Shown here: positions 27,095 through 37,228 of the stretch, in pieces
Position numbering within the stretch: position 1 is the stretch's first letter
Layout of the letters: each line of letters begins with the position of its first letter
Assembly: GCA_017390945.1 (NCBI GenBank)
Contig: JAFOZZ010000183.1
Span: forward strand, 1-37,228
Source of the DNA: Akkermansia sp.
Lineage (GTDB): Bacteria; Verrucomicrobiota; Verrucomicrobiia; Verrucomicrobiales; Akkermansiaceae
Direction of reading: 5' to 3'
DNA length: 37,228 nucleotides
Position numbers and translations under genes: made by a program
The notes under the pieces: generated by a model
What the model was told of the DNA's origin: nothing
The model's database searches: none
Seen by the model: the letters and a program-made list of their open reading frames with translations, nothing else

Positions 27095-28354
27095 TTATCT
27101 TTGGAGCAGCGCGGCGTAGGCGCCATCGGCTTGTTCGCGGTGAGGGAGAGCGAGGTAATCCTCGACGAGATGGAAGTGGGGGTGAGAGGCGAGGAAGGCA
27201 TCCACCACGGCGCGGTCTTCGGCGCGGTCGATGGAGCAAGTGGAGTAGACCAGGCGACCGCCGGGGCGCACGGCTTCGGCGGCGCAAGTCAGGATGCGCA
27301 GTTGGAGCTCTGTCAGGCGTTCGATTTCGGCAGGCTGCAAACGCCAGCGGGCGTCCACTCGGCGCTGAAGCACGCCGCTGTTGCTGCACGGCACATCCAG
27401 CAACACGGCATCGAATGCACCCTGCCACTTCTGCGGGCAAGGCTGAGTCCAGTCGTGCTGCTGCACTTCGACACGCTCGCCACCGGCACGCAGCAGGTTC
27501 TCGCGCAGCTGAGGCAGGCGGTGCGCCTCTGCATCGGTCGACAACAAATCAATACGCCCGCCCGTTGCACCAATCATCGCCACGGATTTACCACCCGGCG
27601 CGGCACAGGCATCGAGCACGCGTTCACCGGCTTGCGGAGCCAGCAGTCCTACGCAGTAGCGAGTCGAGGGGTCGGCCACATAAATGCGCCCCTCCTGCAA
27701 ATCCTTCATCGGCAAACCGGCAGGCAGGCGGTACCAACCGGGAGCATGGGAAAGCGCCACCCAATCCTCGCCCACCTGCGGCGGGTTCAGGGGATTCACG
27801 CGCCCATACACCGGCGGCGTCTGGATATTCCAGGCAAGCATCTGCTCCGCTTCCTCACGACCAAACTCCGCACACCAGCGCTCCACCAACCAATCGGGCG
27901 CAGAGTAACGCACCCCGAGCGGCAGCGTGGGAAGCTCGGCTTCAAACTCCTCCTGTCGACGCACAGCATTACGCAGCATTCCGTTTATCAGGCCACGGAT
28001 ACGGGGCGGCGCGAGCGATACCGTTTCGCTCACCGCAGCGTGCGCCGGTTTGTGCAGCACAAACAACTGACAAAGCCCCAGCAGCGCCAGCCAGCGGGCG
28101 GAATCCTCCAAGCGTCCGGAACGCAGCTTAGCACACAGGTGCTCCAGGTAGCGCAGGTTACGCAGTGTCCCCAGCACGATAGACTGCACGAGCGCACGAT
28201 TACGCGGGGATGATGCCTGACACTCGCGGTCAATCAAAGTTTCGGCAAAGATACCACCCTGCCCCCAACGCTGCAAGCAATGCCAGGCCAGGCGGCGAGG
28301 ATTGGGTTCCTGCGGCTGAGACGGCGATTTCGGGGAGGACATTTTGCGGCTCAT
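27095..28354 (-). CDS. rsmB: 16S rRNA m5C967 methyltransferase RsmB
   Basis: 419 residues from the ATG at 28354, which overlaps the stop of the upstream gene as ATGA and is therefore translationally coupled; an ATG at 28342 is the alternative. The N-terminal third is a NusB-like RNA-binding domain (RRLAWHCLQRWGQGG...RNRALVQSIVLGTLRNLRYLE). The C-terminal part is a Rossmann methyltransferase with SAM motif DACAAPGGKS (248-257), the DVPCS cysteine (C323) and the YSTCS catalytic cysteine (C373). It methylates C967 of 16S rRNA with S-adenosylmethionine. The DVPCSNSG form differs slightly from the common DxPCSGTG but keeps the cysteine. Last gene of the envelope cluster. Confidence 0.92.
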   Translation of the reverse strand: MSRKMSSPKSPSQPQEPNPRRLAWHCLQRWGQGGIFAETLIDRECQASSPRNRALVQSIVLGTLRNLRYLEHLCAKLRSGRLEDSARWLALLGLCQLFVLHKPAHAAVSETVSLAPPRIRGLINGMLRNAVRRQEEFEAELPTLPLGVRYSAPDWLVERWCAEFGREEAEQMLAWNIQTPPVYGRVNPLNPPQVGEDWVALSHAPGWYRLPAGLPMKDLQEGRIYVADPSTRYCVGLLAPQAGERVLDACAAPGGKSVAMIGATGGRIDLLSTDAEAHRLPQLRENLLRAGGERVEVQQHDWTQPCPQKWQGAFDAVLLDVPCSNSGVLQRRVDARWRLQPAEIERLTELQLRILTCAAEAVRPGGRLVYSTCSIDRAEDRAVVDAFLASHPHFHLVEDYLALPHREQADGAYAALLQR

Positions 28355-29139
28355 GATACGATAGCGGGCGGAAGTTGAAGTGCGGAGTGGATGGGCAGCG
28401 AGCCATTCCACGCAATAACCGAGCCTGTAATGGGCGAGTCGGCAGAGGGGGTAAACTCCATGGTGCCACCGGCGCTCTCCAGTATCACGCGAGCAGCGGC
28501 GAAATCCCACAGGTTGATGCGGTTCTCAATATAGGCATCGAAACGCCCGGCCGCGATATAGCACAGTGTGAGCGCGGCAGAGCCAAGAATACGCACCTTA
28601 CGCACCTGCGAGGAAATATGGGCAAAGCGTCGAACACCCTTCACCCCCGAGCCATCGTGCGTACCATGCCCGACAAAGACCACAGCCTCAGCCATGCGCG
28701 AACGGCCCGATACCCGGATGGGCTCGCCATTCAGACACGCACGCTGCCCGGCAAGCGCCGTGTAACACTCGTCCTGCATCGGGTCGTACACACAGCCGAG
28801 CACCAGCTCACCGGCCACACGCAGAGCAATACTCACACAGAAAATCGGCAAGCCGTAGAAATAATTGACTGTACCATCCAGAGGGTCGACAATCCAGATA
28901 GCATCGGCGTCCCCACTGCCACAGTTGCCTTCCTCACCCAGCACAGCATAATCCGGGTAGGCGGCGCGAAGGTTCTCTACTATCAACTGTTGCGTATCCC
29001 TATCGAGCTGGAGCTTAATATCATGCGGCAGCTCAGCATCCACACGATGCACGGCATGGAATTGCTGCTTCAGGTAAGCGCCGGCAGCTCGGGCAGCAGC
29101 CTGGGCAACAGCCAACTGTGGGGTAAAGTCCATCGTCAT
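28351..29139 (-). CDS. suhB: Inositol-monophosphatase family phosphatase
   Basis: 262 residues. Metal-dependent phosphatase of the IMPase/SuhB family, acting on inositol or other sugar monophosphates. All metal ligands are visible: Glu70 in GEEG, Asp85 and Asp88 in WIVDPLDGT, and Asp212 in WDFAAARVILESAGG. The start at 29139 overlaps the PBP stop as ATGA, and its own stop overlaps the rsmB start in the same way, so three genes are coupled. In E. coli SuhB also binds the Nus complex during rRNA transcription; pairing with the rRNA methylase is suggestive but not proof. The symbol is by family only; the substrate is unknown. Confidence 0.85.
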   Translation of the reverse strand: MTMDFTPQLAVAQAAARAAGAYLKQQFHAVHRVDAELPHDIKLQLDRDTQQLIVENLRAAYPDYAVLGEEGNCGSGDADAIWIVDPLDGTVNYFYGLPIFCVSIALRVAGELVLGCVYDPMQDECYTALAGQRACLNGEPIRVSGRSRMAEAVVFVGHGTHDGSGVKGVRRFAHISSQVRKVRILGSAALTLCYIAAGRFDAYIENRINLWDFAAARVILESAGGTMEFTPSADSPITGSVIAWNGSLPIHSALQLPPAIVS

Positions 29140-31019
29140 TTCTTCTCCTCAGCGGCTTTGACGCGAGCGCGCAGGCGAGCACGAGCCTCCGTATGCAGCT
29201 CCTTGGCCAGGCAGAGAGTGGCACGCTTCATCAGGCCGCTCATGCGGGTACCCTGCGGCATATTCTCAGGATTATCAAAGCCCATCCACACAAAGACAGC
29301 CACGCCCTTGTCGTTGAACACCATGCACATGATGCCGCGATTATCCGGCAGCACCTCGTTCATTACCACAGGCTGTCCCTCCACCACATCAAAAGGCGGA
29401 ATCTGCGACACAGCCGTTGCGCTCTCTCGGCGGATATACTCCTCGGCCTGCTCCGGCTCCAGCGCGTAGAGCAGCTTCTGCCCACGGCTCCAGATGCGGT
29501 CAATGAGCTTAAACTGATAGTCGCGTCCCTGATTCTGAATATCGAACAGGAGGCGAGCGAGGTCAATGCGCTTCATATCGAACTCACCACGATAAAGCGC
29601 CGCCTCATTCTGGCGGGAAGGAAGTTTCAGGTTCAGCCCCAGCTGTTTGTAGAAGGCGCTCACCACATCGTAGCCAAGACTCTGACCTGTTACCTCCACA
29701 TTGCGGGCAACGATATGTGTATTGTCGCCACCGGGCAGACAGGCGCAGGCATATACCAGCGGCGAAGCCGCTTTACCAGGGCGGCACATCTCGGACCAGC
29801 GGTCGCGGCCATCCACAGCGCTGCGGCCGGAAACCATAGCAAGCACGCGCCCCTTGTTGTTGCGGCGGGCATCCACCACCAGCACACAGCATTGCAGCAC
29901 GTTCTCCAGGTCGTTACCATCGCGCACCTTCATGTCAGCCGGGCGCTTAATGCTGTCGTAAAACTTACGCAGGCGCTCAGACTCCTGCGGATTCTCGTGC
30001 AGAATGGGCATCCACTTCTCCGGCATGTTACCGGGCTTTTCCACCGCAATGAGAGCACGCTCCATCGCCTGCTCCACATACTGCTGAAGCTGCAAATCGA
30101 GGTTGGTCACAACCCCCATGCCACCAATGTGCTCGCCGAGCTCATCGCGCATGTCGTCCAGCTCCTTATTGGCCCACATAGACACATAGGACACGACCTC
30201 CTGGGAGGCATCCTTCGTCGAGGAAAGCTTAATCTCCTCAGCCACGGCGTTATTGCGCTCCGTTTCGGAGATGAAGCCCAGCGTCAGCATGCGATCCAGC
30301 GTCTCGCGCTTCACGTCCATGGCATTCTCCATGCTCGTCACGGGGTTGCAGAGGGAGGGAGCACGCACCAGACCGGCCAGAGTGGCGCATTCCACCAGGT
30401 TCAGCTGCGATACGGGCTTGCCGAAATATCGACGAGCGGCAGTGGCCACGCCATAGCAATTCTGGCCGAAATAAATGCGGTTGAGATACTGCGTAAAAAT
30501 CGTCTTCTTGTCGTAGTTGCGCTCAATACGCTGTGCCAGCAGCGCCTCCAGGAACTTGCGATCGAGAGTCTTGTCATTCATCTCGAACACATTGCGGGTA
30601 AGCTGCATGGTGATGGTTGAAGCCCCCTGCTCATAGCTCATGGACGCCACATTACGCAGCAGCGAACGGATAACGGACGAATACACGACACCGCCGTGCT
30701 CAAAGAACGTCTCGTCCTCGCGTGCGACAAAGGCATTCACGAGGTTGGAGGGCAAGTCCTCCCAGCACACAAACTTGTGCTCATCGCCACTGAGGGAAGC
30801 AATGTGCTGATTCTCGCAGTCGTAGAGCGTGCTCACGCCGCCAATCTTCACGACTCGCTCCAGGTCGTACTTCAGCGCGCGCATGCTATACGTAACAAGC
30901 ACGGTAATGGCTGCAATCAGCACCAGCGCCAGCACACTGCCCAGAAAAATCAGGCGCTTGCGGCCAATGCTCAGCAGGTAATACCAATGCTTGCGGCGGT
31001 TTCCTCGAGAATAGAACAT
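29136..31019 (-). CDS. Class A PBP-like peptidoglycan glycosyltransferase with degenerate transpeptidase site
   Basis: 627 residues. A basic N-terminal tail and one transmembrane anchor (residues 22-45) precede a GT51 glycosyltransferase domain (about 60-240). Its catalytic motifs are intact: REDETFFEHGG (Glu101), EQGASTITMQLTRN (130-143), KKTIFTQYLNRIYFG and RRYFGKP. It should polymerise lipid II into glycan strands. The penicillin-binding domain (about 300-600) is short and lacks the active-site SxxK: where PGSxxKP is expected it has PGKAASP (414-420), so Lys replaces the nucleophilic Ser and Ser replaces the Lys. No KTG motif is found either. It is probably not a transpeptidase. It is 21 nt after the TPR gene and coupled to the phosphatase gene. 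Confidence 0.88.
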   Translation of the reverse strand: MFYSRGNRRKHWYYLLSIGRKRLIFLGSVLALVLIAAITVLVTYSMRALKYDLERVVKIGGVSTLYDCENQHIASLSGDEHKFVCWEDLPSNLVNAFVAREDETFFEHGGVVYSSVIRSLLRNVASMSYEQGASTITMQLTRNVFEMNDKTLDRKFLEALLAQRIERNYDKKTIFTQYLNRIYFGQNCYGVATAARRYFGKPVSQLNLVECATLAGLVRAPSLCNPVTSMENAMDVKRETLDRMLTLGFISETERNNAVAEEIKLSSTKDASQEVVSYVSMWANKELDDMRDELGEHIGGMGVVTNLDLQLQQYVEQAMERALIAVEKPGNMPEKWMPILHENPQESERLRKFYDSIKRPADMKVRDGNDLENVLQCCVLVVDARRNNKGRVLAMVSGRSAVDGRDRWSEMCRPGKAASPLVYACACLPGGDNTHIVARNVEVTGQSLGYDVVSAFYKQLGLNLKLPSRQNEAALYRGEFDMKRIDLARLLFDIQNQGRDYQFKLIDRIWSRGQKLLYALEPEQAEEYIRRESATAVSQIPPFDVVEGQPVVMNEVLPDNRGIMCMVFNDKGVAVFVWMGFDNPENMPQGTRMSGLMKRATLCLAKELHTEARARLRARVKAAEEKK

Positions 31020-31040: not shown

Positions 31041-33506
31041 TTACTGTTTATCGTGCATCTTCATGAAGATAGCAGTATTGGGCTCAGGCAGCCAGTTGGG
31101 GAACTCCTTGTGCAGAGTATCCTCGTACTGAGCGGCTTCACCCGCGCGCTCGCAGCGGCGCAGAGCCTGGGAAATCTTGTAAAGAGCCATGGGCTTCAGG
31201 TCCTTGTCGCTGACCACGTTGGCGGTACGGCCATAGTATTTGGCAGCTTCAGCGAACTCGCGCTCGGCATAGTAAGAATCACCCAAGGTGATGAAGACAG
31301 CGGACTTGATGGGGCCATCAATACCCAGTGCAATAGCGGATTCGCAAAGCTTGCGAGCCTCGGCCGTGCGCATGAGGCCGATAAGCAGCAACGCATTATC
31401 ACGCATACCCTCAGCCTTGCGGTACGGCTGAGTCTCCATGCTCACGTAGTGCTCAGCAGCCTCCAGACCACGCTCGTACTGGCGCAGCTCCAGGCGGGCA
31501 CGGGCAAGAGTCTTCCACACCAGCGGCTCCACGGCAGCACGCTCCTTCTGCGTACCATCGGCGGCGGTGTACTTCTCGCGAGAAGCGCGAGCCACGGCAT
31601 CGGAAAGGTACTTATCGGCATCCAGGTAGCGCTTGCTCTGGAAGCACATCCAGCCACACCAACGCGGCACGGCGGGCGGCAGCGCATTGTAAGAGGAAGA
31701 ATTGTTACGCTCCAGCACCACAAGAGCCTCGCGCAGCTTATCGGCATCCTTCATCTTGAAGTAGCAGTGTACCAGGCTCAGGTCAACAGCGGCGCCATAC
31801 TGCTCCGGGTTCAGGGTGCGAGCCTCACGGAAATGGGGAATGGCAGAGCCGGGGTCAGATTCGTACTGAGCACGGGCGATATTGTAATGAGCCTCGGCAA
31901 TAGCCGCCGGCTTCACCCCACGATGGGCGCACTTAATCAGGCCTTCGTAGTAGGCAACCATCTTCTTGGAGTCGCGATTCGCCACGGCCTGAGCGGCACG
32001 CTGCCAGCACATCGGCACCGAGTTCGAATGCGGGTACTCATTGATAACGCGCTCGAAGTCTGCCAGAGCCGCGCCAATGTTGTTCATCTTCACATAGCAG
32101 CTGCCACGCAGGGCAAGAGCCTCGGGCATGCGCGTATCCTTGGGATAGGAGGCAATGAACTTATCGAGCGTGCTCACAGGGTCACCGGAACCGCCCTGAG
32201 CCGAGCACCAGGCCTTCTTGTACATAGCATCGGCACGCACAGACTCAGGGATATTATCCATGTTGATAGCCTCGAACTGGCGAGAGGCCTCGGGCACGTC
32301 GGCCAGCATCATGCGGTCGGCATACATGAGGCGCACCAGGTCATTGCATGCCAGAGAAGCCGTGCTCTGACCGGGGGCTGCATATGTGTTGAGATAACGC
32401 TGAGCCAGTGTAAAGAAATTGACGCTGCGAGTCTGCTGGGCGCAGAGCAAGCGGCGGTAAGCGGCATCTGCTGCCAGAGAGGTCTGGGGCTGAGCCTGCT
32501 CCGCCACCTCGAACCACTGAGCGGCGCGCTCGTAGTTGCGCAGCTCCATGAAGCACTGGCCTACAATCAACGCGCGGCGAGCCTCCTTAGCCGGGTCATC
32601 CAGCGGAGCGTAGTTGCTGGTAATCTGGCGCACAACGCCTTCAAAATCCTTGTTCTTGTAGAGGGACATCAGGGTCTCCATCTGAGCCTCACCGGCGTAC
32701 TTCTCCATACCGGGCATGCCCGTCAGCTTGGCATACAGCTGCTGAGCCTCATTGCCCTTACCCAGGCGCGAAGCCAGACGCGCAGCCTGCAAGGTGGCCA
32801 TGCCACGCATCCCCTCCTCCACACCATTGCGCTTGAGCAGCTGGCTGAAGAAGTCGTAGGCTTCCGCATGCTTGCCTTCCTCCGTCTTCATCTGAGCCAG
32901 TGCGTAGAGGGAGGCATTCACAATAACGGGAGACACGCTCTGGTCAAGCAACAGCCCCTTAAAGCGGTCTTCGGCTTCCTTCTTCTGCCCCAGCTGCAAG
33001 TGGGTACGCCCCAGGCGGTACAGAGCATCGGTGCTCAGCTCCGGGCGGCGGGTCTCGCGTACAGTGATGCTGTAATAGTTGCGAGCCTTGGTCCACAGAT
33101 TGCGGGAGGCAGCCTGCTTGGCCAGATTGTAAGCCGCGGCAGCAGCGAACTCGCCACCATTCTTGCGGGCAGCCACCTTCTCCAGCACGGCGTCGGACTT
33201 GGCTATTTCGCCGCATTCCTCAAGGCAGACAGCCTGCAAGTACTGCGCCTTGGTTGCATTGGCCGACTGGGGGTACTTCTTCACGAAATCCCCGAAGAGG
33301 ACAGCTGCACGGGAAAGCCCCACCTGGCGGGACTCGGCATCCACCCCCGACTGACGAGCCTGAGCATACAGGTGCTCGGCAATGGCGTAGGCATCATCCT
33401 CCGGATTCACCACCAGGTCGGCGTCATCCGCCTGCTGGGCATACAAGGCAGGCACAGGGAGCATACCCAGTGCCATCAAACACGCAAAAGATTTGTTCAC
33501 TTTCAT
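31041..33506 (-). CDS. Secreted multi-TPR protein
   Basis: 821 residues beginning with a signal peptide (MKVNKSFACLMALGMLPVPALYAQ). Nearly all of the rest is a TPR solenoid (for example STDALYRLGRTHLQLGQKKEAEDRF, ADAAYRRLLCAQQ, AEAHYNIARAQYESD, AVFITLGDSYYAEREFAEAAKYY), with perhaps 15-20 repeats. It should be a periplasmic scaffold. The neighbours are ExbB and ExbD upstream and a peptidoglycan polymerase downstream, which suggests it links an energised inner-membrane complex to wall or outer-membrane machinery, as TPR proteins do in Tol-Pal and related systems. A separate promoter precedes it, so it can be transcribed apart from exbBD. Family clear, exact role inferred. Confidence 0.82.
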   Translation of the reverse strand: MKVNKSFACLMALGMLPVPALYAQQADDADLVVNPEDDAYAIAEHLYAQARQSGVDAESRQVGLSRAAVLFGDFVKKYPQSANATKAQYLQAVCLEECGEIAKSDAVLEKVAARKNGGEFAAAAAYNLAKQAASRNLWTKARNYYSITVRETRRPELSTDALYRLGRTHLQLGQKKEAEDRFKGLLLDQSVSPVIVNASLYALAQMKTEEGKHAEAYDFFSQLLKRNGVEEGMRGMATLQAARLASRLGKGNEAQQLYAKLTGMPGMEKYAGEAQMETLMSLYKNKDFEGVVRQITSNYAPLDDPAKEARRALIVGQCFMELRNYERAAQWFEVAEQAQPQTSLAADAAYRRLLCAQQTRSVNFFTLAQRYLNTYAAPGQSTASLACNDLVRLMYADRMMLADVPEASRQFEAINMDNIPESVRADAMYKKAWCSAQGGSGDPVSTLDKFIASYPKDTRMPEALALRGSCYVKMNNIGAALADFERVINEYPHSNSVPMCWQRAAQAVANRDSKKMVAYYEGLIKCAHRGVKPAAIAEAHYNIARAQYESDPGSAIPHFREARTLNPEQYGAAVDLSLVHCYFKMKDADKLREALVVLERNNSSSYNALPPAVPRWCGWMCFQSKRYLDADKYLSDAVARASREKYTAADGTQKERAAVEPLVWKTLARARLELRQYERGLEAAEHYVSMETQPYRKAEGMRDNALLLIGLMRTAEARKLCESAIALGIDGPIKSAVFITLGDSYYAEREFAEAAKYYGRTANVVSDKDLKPMALYKISQALRRCERAGEAAQYEDTLHKEFPNWLPEPNTAIFMKMHDKQ

Positions 33507-33572: not shown

Positions 33573-33612
33573 GCAAATGCCAAGGCCTTACTGGGAGGCC
33601 TTGGGCATCTGC
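33573..33612 (-). terminator. Hairpin at the end of exbD, possible attenuator
   Basis: Long stem with arms GCAAATGCCAAGGCC and GGCCTTGGGCATCTGC and a 9-nt loop that contains the exbD stop. A moderately T-rich stretch (GTTTAATCTTTT) follows on the minus strand. It may reduce read-through from exbBD into the TPR gene, which has its own promoter. Confidence 0.45.
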
Positions 33613-34022
33613 TTGGAGAAACTCACGTTGTACACACCGGCTTTCGTGCAGGTGGAAATCACGTCTGCCACCTTCTGCCAGCGCATTTCGGCATCCCCTC
33701 GGATTCGCACGGGCAGCGCCTCATCGAGTCGCACCTGGCGGCGCAGGCGGTTTTCGAGCTGTTCGAGGGAGAACACCTCGCGGTCAATCGTCACCACGAG
33801 CGTGCCGTCAGCCTCTTCGCGGGCGTTGATAATGATTTCCTTAATGGCGCGGGAAGCTTCCTCGGTGGTCTTGGGTGCAGTAGGCACCTTCACCTTAAGG
33901 TCCTGCTCGTTGAGAATGAACTTCTGCGTCACCACGAAGAAAATCAGCAGCAGGAACACCACGTCGAGCATGGGAGCCAGCTGGAAGCCGATGGGCTCAG
34001 GAATCTTCGCATTGATTTTCAT
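33588..34022 (-). CDS. exbD: ExbD/TolR family proton-channel subunit
   Basis: 144 residues. A short cytoplasmic N-terminus and a single transmembrane helix carrying the essential Asp20 (FQLAPMLDVVFLLLIFFVV), then a periplasmic domain ending in a typical ExbD fold (VVTIDREVFSLEQLENRL...VRIRGDAEMRWQKVADVISTC). With ExbB it turns proton flow into mechanical work on a periplasmic partner. No TonB or TolA gene is present nearby; the long TPR protein directly downstream is the likely partner or reports on it. It starts 21 nt after exbB. ExbD and TolR cannot be separated from sequence here. Confidence 0.9.
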   Translation of the reverse strand: MKINAKIPEPIGFQLAPMLDVVFLLLIFFVVTQKFILNEQDLKVKVPTAPKTTEEASRAIKEIIINAREEADGTLVVTIDREVFSLEQLENRLRRQVRLDEALPVRIRGDAEMRWQKVADVISTCTKAGVYNVSFSKQMPKASQ

Positions 34023-34043: not shown

Positions 34044-34799
34044 TCAATACTCATCGTCCATCATCTCGCTGCGGGCACCCTTCTGGGCGATGCTGCCCAG
34101 GCGCTGCTCACGGTCAGCCTGCACAGCCAGCACGGAGAGGATGTGGGTAACAGCCACCTCCATGTCGGTCACATGCTTCTGAATGCGGTTACGGAAAATA
34201 GCATAGGCAAGCATACAGGGAATAGCCAGCACCAGACCACCGGCGGTGGTAATCATAGCCTCGGAGATACCGCTGGCCATCTGCATCTGCTTCACGCCCT
34301 CGAAGTTACCCTGAGCCATTTCCCAGAAGGTGCTCATCATACCCAGCACGGTACCAAGCAGACCCACCATGGGTGCAATGGCGCCGATATCGGACAGCCA
34401 GTTAATCTGACGAGTCAGGATGTTGGCCTGGCGAGTAGCCTCAGCTGAGGCCACTTCGCGCACGGCGTCCATGTTGGCACGCAGGTTGCGCTGCATGAAC
34501 ATCACAATCACGTGCACGGTGCGGGCGAAGCTGGAGCCATCGCGCTCACACAGGCTCAGCAGACCGGCGTAGTCCTTACGGCGAATATAGGACTCGACAG
34601 AAAGCACAATATCACGCGGCAGCACGGCCGAGGAACGAGTCGTCCATAAACACACAAACACAGCCATCAACGCGATGAAAGAAAGCCCCAGCAGGGCGTA
34701 CATCAGCGGACCGCCTTTCTCAAAAATCGAAAATACATCGAAGCCAGCGGTGGACTCCGCTGTCTTTACTGCCTGACCTAAAATGTTCATTCCGTGCAT
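34044..34799 (-). CDS. exbB: MotA/TolQ/ExbB proton-channel subunit
   Basis: About 251 residues. The ATG at 34799 is chosen because the -10 box ends 12 nt upstream; the ATG at 34790 is a close alternative. Three transmembrane helices: one near residues 28-52 (PLMYALLGLSFIALMAVFVCLW), and a long pair in the conserved channel domain (IGAIAPMVGLLGTVLGMMSTF and AMITTAGGLVLAIPCMLAYAIF). Between the first and second is the cytoplasmic helical domain (SYIRRKDYAGLLSLCERDGSSFARTV). The GLLGTVLGM and TTAGGLVLAIP blocks are diagnostic. It forms the pentameric ring around ExbD in the inner membrane. First gene of the envelope operon. Confidence 0.9.
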   Translation of the reverse strand: MHGMNILGQAVKTAESTAGFDVFSIFEKGGPLMYALLGLSFIALMAVFVCLWTTRSSAVLPRDIVLSVESYIRRKDYAGLLSLCERDGSSFARTVHVIVMFMQRNLRANMDAVREVASAEATRQANILTRQINWLSDIGAIAPMVGLLGTVLGMMSTFWEMAQGNFEGVKQMQMASGISEAMITTAGGLVLAIPCMLAYAIFRNRIQKHVTDMEVAVTHILSVLAVQADREQRLGSIAQKGARSEMMDDEY

Positions 34800-34811
34800 A
34801 GCTTCGCGCGC

Positions 34812-34840
34812 ATTATATGACAAAGCCCTGGCGATTTCAA
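34812..34840 (-). promoter_or_regulatory. Promoter for the exbBD operon
   Basis: Minus strand: -35 TTGAAA (34835-34840), 17-nt spacer, -10 TATAAT (34812-34817). It is a near-consensus sigma70 promoter, the strongest in the window. Confidence 0.75.
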
Positions 34841-34860: not shown

Positions 34861-35634
34861 TCACTTTTTTTTGCTTTTCTTAACGATTTTTCGCTGGGTT
34901 GCTTTCAAATCATCCCTCACAACAAAGTCGTGTCTTACCACAGGAGAAGCATTCGTCAGGAAATAATGCCACCATTCCTTGCGATAGTTACGCATACCGG
35001 CAGCAGCCATCACTTCTCTGAGCTTCAGTCGGTTAGCCCGCTGCTGAGGTGTCACCAGCGTACTCTCGGTGGAGGAAGACACATCCAGAAAGTCGTGGCG
35101 CCCACCCATGTCCAGCTCCATACCAGTATCGATATCATACAAGGTGACATCCACCGCGATACCCCAGCTGTGTTCGGACACCTTACCGATATAACGGCCA
35201 TCGTAAATACCCTGCTTGGTAATGTTAGGATAGAAGGTAGGCTTTGTGCTGCCGTCTTCAGGGCGGCGGGACCAGCGACGGAAATGAGCCATTGCGCGCG
35301 CCGGGCGATAAGCATCCCATATCACCAGCCCCAGGCCTTCCTTGGCAAGCTTTGCAGCAACTTTTTTCACAGCCCGAGCGGTATCCTTGCGCAGAATCGC
35401 ACGCGTGCCTTCATACCCGTCAATCGGGCAGCCTACAAAATTATCACAGGTGGAATACTTCAAATCCACCTTTACATTCGGCAGCTCATCCAAGTAACAG
35501 AAGTCGGCCGGCAATGCCCCCTCCTCCACAGCATAAGAAACGGCGGACTTTGCAGGAGCCGCAGTAATCTCGGTGGTAGAGCACTGAGTAAGCAATACAG
35601 CGGCGACACAGGAAAATAAAGATAAATACTTCAT
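34861..35634 (-). CDS. VanX/DdpX-type D-alanyl-D-alanine dipeptidase, lipoprotein
   Basis: 257 residues. A lipoprotein signal (MKYLSLFSCVAAVLLTQC, Cys18) is followed by an M15D zinc peptidase domain. Active-site marks: DAYRP (Arg110), SEHSWGIAVD with zinc ligands His155 and Asp162, and EWWHY with catalytic Glu220 and zinc ligand His223. The family splits D-Ala-D-Ala. In vancomycin resistance it is cytoplasmic; a lipid-anchored form outside the cytoplasm points instead to recycling or use of D-Ala-D-Ala released from the wall. There is no VanH/VanA nearby, so a resistance role is not indicated. It lies 24 nt downstream of the CD225-like gene. A Lys-rich tail (KKSKKK) closes the protein. Confidence 0.9.
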   Translation of the reverse strand: MKYLSLFSCVAAVLLTQCSTTEITAAPAKSAVSYAVEEGALPADFCYLDELPNVKVDLKYSTCDNFVGCPIDGYEGTRAILRKDTARAVKKVAAKLAKEGLGLVIWDAYRPARAMAHFRRWSRRPEDGSTKPTFYPNITKQGIYDGRYIGKVSEHSWGIAVDVTLYDIDTGMELDMGGRHDFLDVSSSTESTLVTPQQRANRLKLREVMAAAGMRNYRKEWWHYFLTNASPVVRHDFVVRDDLKATQRKIVKKSKKK

Positions 35635-35910: not shown

Positions 35911-37228
35911 TTAGAACATGCCACCTCTGTACGCCCGAGCCAACACCGTAACGGTGCGAGGCAGTAGGTAGAGAGAAAGATTCTGAGTTTTATCCGTAAA
36001 ATGATTGACGCTATGATCCTGACGCCCCAACCCGCCGAAAGCGGCATCGTCGGAGTCCAGCACCACCTTCCACTCACCATGAGCGGGAGCCGGCAGCTTG
36101 TAGTCCGGAATAGCCTGCGTGCCATTCCAATTGAACACGAACACGAGCCCCGCACGCTCGAAGGCCATCACCTGGTTCTTCTCGTCCATATTCAACGGGC
36201 GAGCGGGAGGCGCAGAGAGCAAGTCTGTGCGCTTGGCCAGCTCCACCATCGCGCGGTCAAAGGCATTCAAATAGCGGTAGCGCAGCAAGCCATTGTCCAC
36301 CAACCCCCACTGACGGCGGCAGTATTTGTAGGAGTTGCCATTCCCCTCGCGCGGGAAATCTATCCATTCGGGATGCCCGAACTCGTTGCCCATGAAGTTC
36401 AGCCACCCTTCCCCGCCCGCTGCCAGCGTGGCCAGGCGAATCATCTTGTGCAGCGCCATGCCTCGGTCGATTATCAGGCTGGGCATCTCACAGCTCATGT
36501 GGGTGTACATTTCCGCATCCATCAGGCGGAAGGCGATTGTCTTGTCGCCCACCAGCGCTTGGTCGTGGCTCTCGGCATACGCGATATTCGGTTCGCCATA
36601 GCGACGGTTGATAAGCGTGTACCAGATATCGCCCACGCTCCACTCCTCGTCCTTCTTTTCTTTGAGTATCTTAATCCAATAATCAGGCAAGCCCATGGCA
36701 AGGCGATGCGTGAAGCCAAAGCCACCTTCATCCACCGGGCGGCAAAGCCCGGGCATGCCGGACATATCCTCCGCGATAGCGAACGCTCCGGGTGTGACCT
36801 GCTGCACCAGAGTAGCTGCCAGCTGGAGATACACCACGGCATCCACATTCACCTGTGTATTGAAGTAGCAGCCCAAATCCGTGAACGGCTCATGCCCATG
36901 GTGCAGGTAGAGCATGCTCGTCACACCATCAAAGCGGAAGCCGTCGAAGTGGTACTCCTCCAGCCACCAGCGCAAGTTACTGAGCAGGAACTCTATCACC
37001 TCCGCGCGGCCATAGTCGAACAGGCAACTATCCCAATCGGGGTGGAAGGCATCGCGCTTGCCGGCATTGAAATACTGCCCACCGGAACCATCGAAATTAT
37101 TAAGCCCCTCGGCCACATTCTTCACCGCATGCGAATGCACGACATCCAGCAGAACCGCTATTCCCATACCGTGAGCCGTATCAATCAGATACTTCAAATC
37201 CTCCGGTGTGCCGAAGCGATTGCAGGGC
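35911..37228 (-). CDS. glgB: 1,4-alpha-glucan branching enzyme, N-terminus beyond the window
   Basis: The frame is open to the window end (…NRFGTPEDLKYLIDTAHG), so the gene continues upstream; about 438 residues of an expected 680-750 are visible. It creates alpha-1,6 branches in glycogen. GH13 motifs are present: VLLDVVHSHAVKN (region I), FDGFRFDGVTSM (region II, catalytic Asp), AIAEDMSGMPG (region III, catalytic Glu) and YAESHDQALVGDK (region IV). The C-terminal all-beta domain follows (VMAFERAGLVFVFNWNG). The sequence style (FRFDGVTSMLYLHHG, AEDMSGMPGLCRP) is that of the eukaryote-like GH13_8 subfamily rather than the E. coli GlgB type. Confidence 0.92.
   Translation of the reverse strand, partial: PCNRFGTPEDLKYLIDTAHGMGIAVLLDVVHSHAVKNVAEGLNNFDGSGGQYFNAGKRDAFHPDWDSCLFDYGRAEVIEFLLSNLRWWLEEYHFDGFRFDGVTSMLYLHHGHEPFTDLGCYFNTQVNVDAVVYLQLAATLVQQVTPGAFAIAEDMSGMPGLCRPVDEGGFGFTHRLAMGLPDYWIKILKEKKDEEWSVGDIWYTLINRRYGEPNIAYAESHDQALVGDKTIAFRLMDAEMYTHMSCEMPSLIIDRGMALHKMIRLATLAAGGEGWLNFMGNEFGHPEWIDFPREGNGNSYKYCRRQWGLVDNGLLRYRYLNAFDRAMVELAKRTDLLSAPPARPLNMDEKNQVMAFERAGLVFVFNWNGTQAIPDYKLPAPAHGEWKVVLDSDDAAFGGLGRQDHSVNHFTDKTQNLSLYLLPRTVTVLARAYRGGMF

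Follow-up and report, generated by a model that had tools for sequence, protein, structure and literature searches.

A class A penicillin-binding protein of Akkermansia that has lost its transpeptidase motifs, with a predicted role as a glycosyltransferase on a retained scaffold

Class A penicillin-binding proteins (PBPs) are usually treated as bifunctional, and the locus described here raises the question of what such a protein does once the box of its transpeptidase (TP) domain no longer reads SxxK. The gene (29136..31019, minus strand) lies in a stretch of 37,228 nucleotides from Akkermansia sp. (assembly GCA_017390945.1, contig JAFOZZ010000183.1), referred to here as the window, and encodes a protein of 627 residues from an ATG start. 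Class A PBPs with an inactive TP domain of this kind are called type C below, and their relatives with an intact SxxK are called live type A. A clade that keeps the TP fold without its chemistry parts the structural from the catalytic role, something that is hard to achieve in model organisms, and Akkermansia is a gut bacterium of wide interest in which the reading proposed here is testable.

The glycosyltransferase (GT) part of the protein shows no sign of loss. A hydrophobic N-terminus precedes it as in other class A PBPs, with a predicted membrane helix at residues 20-49 (30873..30962, minus strand) that is also helical in the structure model. Pfam places a Transgly domain (PF00912) at residues 72-244 (30288..30806, minus strand) with E=1.1e-55 and 188 bits against a cut-off of 27, and the residues typical of the GT51 family, E101, D102, E158, K155 and Q139, are conserved, in such a way that the catalytic site appears intact. 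Throughout the 43 type C sequences analysed, one truncated sequence aside, E101, D102, Q131, G132, S134, Q139, K155 and E158 are invariant, and the GT51 motif regions align with those of live relatives, as expected from an earlier note on this sequence that described the GT motifs as complete. The domain order is also that of a class A PBP, with the model and its PDB matches covering residues 59-620; phmmer searches of the PDB returned class A PBPs too, their best stretches ending by around residue 329. The protein scores 272.7 bits with the PBP1A model TIGR02074, under its curated cut-off of 508.75, and 109.9 bits with the NCBIfam model mono_pep_trsgly, against a cut-off of 182.65. The presence of a pseudo-TP domain of about 250 residues sets it apart from the monofunctional enzymes MtgA and SgtB, although Pfam found no match to the transpeptidase family PF00905 in the 627 residues, even at E<=1.

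This pseudo-TP domain occupies residues 371-610 (29190..29909, minus strand). Its residues 412-421 (CRPGKAASPL) align without gaps to the (R)Q(I/V)GSxFKPF of 31 live relatives, so the former SxxK box is correctly placed at K416-A-A-S419 (29763..29774, minus strand), where the earlier note had put it. Both catalytic residues are present in all 31 live type A proteins. When the orthologues were aligned at this box, as the note had proposed, the Ser position in 28 sequences of the same genus was found to hold Arg in 19, Asp in three and singletons including Lys and Asn in the others, and never Ser, and the Lys position held Ala in 21, Thr in four and otherwise singletons, with Ser once, in the window itself, and never Lys. 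Among 15 sequences from sister genera, the Ser position reads T (5), S (4), A (3), P (2) or D (1) and the Lys position E (13), T (1) or S (1), in such a way that none of the 43 type C sequences has Lys at the TP Lys position. A search of the type C orthologues by pattern and by alignment did not find an SxxK at a shifted position, which the note had named as the result that would speak against it.

As the box had lost both residues across the orthologues, KAAS is the reading of a single lineage. The window stands alone in its K..S among the 28 same-genus sequences, which are 45-70% identical to it in the case of the orthologues compared, and the box codons of one of them, L012, AGG (Arg) and GCT (Ala), are few substitutions away from the AAA and TCG of the window. 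Judged from these sequences, KAAS arose by chance at a site that had already lost its function, and the description of its residues as transposed, given in the earlier note, is misleading, the resemblance being a coincidence. A sequencing or assembly error behind KAAS was also considered, and it was excluded because intact full-length orthologues exist in more than 30 other genomes of the genus.

The other two TP motifs are gone as well. The stretch bearing SxN is deleted, with alignment gaps relative to live relatives at residues 436-449 (29673..29714, minus strand), and the distance from the box to W(V/M)GF is 162 residues in the window protein versus 212 in a live relative. The KTG strand is replaced by VVMNEVLPDNRG at residues 551-562 (29334..29369, minus strand), next to a gap, which agrees with the absence of KTG noticed before. 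SxN is missing from all type C sequences and KTG is absent; the positions kept in both type C and live type A proteins are mostly structural glycines, plus W578, G580 and D582. With Ser, Lys, SxN and KTG all missing, the sequences indicate that TP chemistry is lost. An acyl-enzyme would be impossible, and therefore neither peptide cross-linking nor covalent penicillin binding is expected. Elsewhere in the data set, one class A PBP (L064, G025:C6) reads GSSFLP, retaining the Ser but not the Lys, and may represent an intermediate step in a similar decay.

A homologue search over 143 genomes of the order, from 39 genera and including a sister-genus sample of 15 genomes, showed short GT51 proteins of type C in the genus of the window and in sister genera within its family. 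The best matches listed from beyond this family were full-size class A PBPs, with the exception of a small number of shorter frames: L116 is a normal protein with SxxK that is truncated by the end of its contig, and the others are putative contig-end fragments. The sister-genus orthologues are 548-618 residues long, lack SxN and KTG and are monophyletic. In a maximum-likelihood tree of 117 proteins, built from 273 columns of the GT domain and linker, the type C clade was supported by an SH-aLRT of 95.8 and a UFBoot of 81, with 100/100 for the part from the genus and 97.1/100 for that from the sister genera, and live type A came out as the sister of type C, the two together at 98/98. The loss of TP motifs is common to the whole type C clade, which argues that the inactivation is old and predates the radiation of the family. 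In 9 of 15 sister-genus loci the type C gene lies directly downstream of a live type A gene on the same strand, with the frames overlapping or no more than about 100 bp apart, and the simplest reading would be that a live class A PBP gene was duplicated in tandem and that one of the copies then lost its TP chemistry.

The explanation that we consider probable is that type C proteins are class A PBPs reduced to GT activity, in which the TP fold serves as a non-catalytic scaffold and the glycan is cross-linked by other enzymes. The membrane-anchored protein would polymerise only the glycan of peptidoglycan, and its former TP domain, forming no acyl-enzyme, would neither cross-link nor bind penicillin covalently, both the GT activity and the lack of penicillin binding being predictions from sequence. 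The remnant would be kept to position the GT domain and to dock partner proteins. Class B PBPs, or a live class A PBP with its gene at another locus, would cross-link the type C glycan, and the genome of the window does encode class A PBPs with SxxK, plus two KTG-bearing transpeptidases without GT51. A precedent is found in the S487A mutant of C. difficile PBP1, in which the TP serine is replaced and the GT is left, and septa are still made, although misplaced and in excess (PMC12539705); therefore a class A PBP without TP activity can still polymerise usefully, with the difference that the C. difficile mutation was introduced in the laboratory, into an enzyme that is essential, and is not a natural fixed state. 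The reading also suggests that beta-lactams would not reach the type C glycan polymerase directly.

The candidate partners come from the gene neighbourhoods, and docking to any of them is proposed by guilt by association. In the genus of the window the gene order is constant, ExbB-ExbD-TPR-C-phosphatase, with ExbB and ExbD preceding the TPR gene wherever the stretch of DNA reaches that far. In the window all these genes are on the minus strand: the ExbB/TolQ family proton-channel protein (34044..34823; PF01618, E=8e-29), the ExbD/TolR family protein (33588..34022; PF02472, E=1.5e-24), a periplasmic TPR protein of 821 residues (31041..33506), whose stop codon is 21 bp from the start of the PBP gene, and an inositol-monophosphatase family protein (28351..29139), a constant neighbour in the genus, whose start overlaps the PBP stop (ATGA). 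Here the likely partner would be the TPR protein, with which the earlier note had proposed a contact and which the synteny within the genus supports, and an envelope machine driven by the proton-motive force may control glycan polymerisation.

In E. coli, PBP1B is encoded outside the tol operon. CpoB (YbgF) and TolA bind this enzyme and tune its activities, CpoB sitting in a cleft between the UB2H and TP domains (PMC4458516), and a more specific form of the preferred explanation is that ExbB, ExbD and the TPR protein act on the pseudo-TP domain as TolQRA and CpoB do on PBP1B, tuning glycan synthesis to the constriction of the envelope. We regard this as possible, somewhat short of an even chance. 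Both systems pair a class A PBP with a TPR protein of the periplasm and a proton channel of the TolQ/TolR type, the operon order is constant in the genus, the closest NCBIfam models for ExbB and ExbD are tolQ and tolR, and the TPR protein reaches 104.8 bits with tol_pal_ybgF (TIGR02795) against a cut-off of 90.1, although this score is summed over five repeats. However, ExbB and ExbD stay under the curated TolQ and TolR cut-offs (83.9 versus 221 and 51.2 versus 127.3 bits), the TPR protein gives only 30.8 bits with the E. coli-type CpoB model against 383, and TolB (PF04052) had no match in six genomes of the family (the assembly of the window itself is 87% complete), in a search whose control gave a match in 3 of 14 named genomes including E. 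coli. The parallel with Tol-Pal is thus suggestive, while the proteins fall outside Tol-Pal as these models define it, and the E. coli enzyme differs in being bifunctional, whereas the one described here is TP-dead and inside the operon.

The link between the TPR gene and the PBP gene holds within the genus of the window. At five sister-genus loci ExbD, mostly together with ExbB, lies beside a TPR homologue, and no PBP match was found within about 1.5 kb on either side of them; the cassette and the PBP being separate there, their association is not an ancestral trait, and the type C gene probably moved into the ExbB-ExbD-TPR operon in the genus of the window. In two genomes of this genus (L024 and L025, from G006 and G002) the TPR gene beside the PBP is 27-36% identical to that of the window and the PBP 49-50%, values that weaken the case for a tight co-evolution; the TPR partner seems to have been replaced or to evolve fast there. 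In some sister genera (L127, L129 and L131) the TPR gene is present as a tandem of two copies that have diverged.

Further upstream of ExbB, both in the window (34861-35634) and in G022, there is a gene for a VanX-like D-Ala-D-Ala dipeptidase (M15). It was considered as a part of the operon and dropped, as more distant genomes of the same genus did not show it next to the operon. An alpha-amylase-family gene that runs to the end of the window (35911-37197) is 98.6% identical to its counterpart in G022, its neighbours being 65-95% and the PBP 70% identical between the two, which points to either a very strong constraint or a recent transfer or recombination.

A second form of the preferred explanation has the dead PBP activate the live type A PBP allosterically or form a dimer with it. 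The adjacent, co-oriented pairs of live and dead genes described above make the live enzyme the likely partner in sister genera, but the pair is split in the genus of the window, where the type A gene is on another contig in the genome analysed and far from the type C gene in relatives assembled as a single contig. We hold this form to be tentative and rather doubtful.

Scaffolding of either kind requires that the dead domain still folds and is maintained. A structure model built from 18 orthologues had a mean pLDDT of 81.9, with most of the pseudo-TP blocks at 80-96 and a helix beginning at G415, beside the box. Foldseek matched it to the class A PBP entry 3dwk_C with E=1.1e-23, and VIA-align superposed it on 3udx_B (A. 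baumannii PBP1a) with Z 27.8 over 434 residues and an overall rmsd of 7.0 Å, which would fit a different angle between the domains. In five close pairs of orthologues the NG86 dN/dS ratios were 0.056, 0.039, 0.116, 0.094 and 0.070 for residues 371-610 and 0.044, 0.046, 0.034, 0.026 and 0.039 for the GT domain, rough values given that several dS were near or above 1, pairs with saturated dS being set aside; a sixth pair, G001/G003, gave 0.57 and 0.24, respectively. The pseudo-TP domain is under purifying selection in five of the six informative pairs. The earlier view of a structural domain retained after the loss of catalysis was thus supported, with all three motifs gone across the family, the fold predicted and selection acting on it; the claim that the rest of the domain, about 300 residues, is kept stood for the predicted fold and failed for the deleted SxN stretch.

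These data bear on a third explanation, in which the pseudo-TP domain has no function beyond GT stability and is being lost as the protein turns into a monofunctional GT. The domain is shorter than in live PBPs, in the genus it has degenerated beyond detection by Pfam while the copies from sister genera still give weak PF00905 matches, and between distant orthologues its divergence exceeds that of the GT domain (30% versus 56% identity), all of which would be expected from decay. Against it stand a purifying selection near the level of the GT domain in close pairs, the full-length frames throughout the genus and the family, with no truncated copy seen other than contig-end fragments, and the age of the loss, older than the family radiation and leaving a long time in which the domain could have been dropped; we consider this explanation unlikely. 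A working inverted dyad, in which Lys and Ser are exchanged and still carry out acyl transfer, is extremely improbable and is ruled out by the orthologues, as its two letters occur in the window sequence only, with no other K..S among the 28 same-genus sequences, and SxN and KTG are gone, the former with its whole segment.

We compared the scaffolded GT proposed here with known enzymes. The PBP1a-type bifunctional class A PBPs (TIGR02074; A. baumannii and E. coli PBP1a) share the order anchor-GT51-linker-TP and are among the best structural matches, whereas the window protein lacks all three TP motifs and the SxN segment and has a TP domain around 50 residues shorter. The predicted activity, glycan polymerisation without cross-linking, is that of the monofunctional MtgA and SgtB/Mgt, which have no TP domain, unlike the window protein with its predicted-folded, selected pseudo-TP domain. 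In Streptomyces, 13 of 100 class A PBP sequences lack SxxK (PMC6273383), but SxN and KTG are mostly kept there and the author considered these proteins capable of PBP function, whereas here all motifs are gone and this state is fixed across a clade that spans the family. No paper on the type C clade emerged from literature searches for class A PBPs with inactive, pseudo or degenerate TP domains, an absence that is not proof, and the V. spinosum essential-genome paper yielded no passage on class A PBPs.

Type C is possibly not the only such family. Another clade, made up of 24 class A PBPs found in ten genera of the order (support 99.5/96, complete members of around 820-950 residues) has Thr at the position of the catalytic Ser in all members and lacks the Lys in 23 (TAFT, TALL, TGFL and similar), L084 reading TAFK, with KTG or a close variant mostly kept. 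Its members include L089:622-3255(-) (G000:C114), from the window genome, which scores 14.8 bits with PF00905 against a cut-off of 22.1, as well as L035, L036, L038, L039, L055, L057, L066, L074, L077, L081, L084 and L086, and the transpeptidases of this Thr-box subfamily may likewise be inactive, or unusual. In the window genome, 87% complete, four GT51 genes were found and two of them look TP-dead. It may be speculated that TP-dead class A PBPs serve the family as regulated glycan polymerases, one of them being energy-coupled through the ExbB-ExbD-TPR operon and insensitive to beta-lactams in the genus of the window, and that roughly one in two class A PBPs of the window genome, Thr-box proteins included, would carry a pseudo-TP domain, a generalisation that we put forward with low confidence. 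The live-type class A PBP of the same genome (L007, G000:C193:3134-3943) reads MTG where its orthologues, such as L047, have KTG, either a real change or an assembly error.
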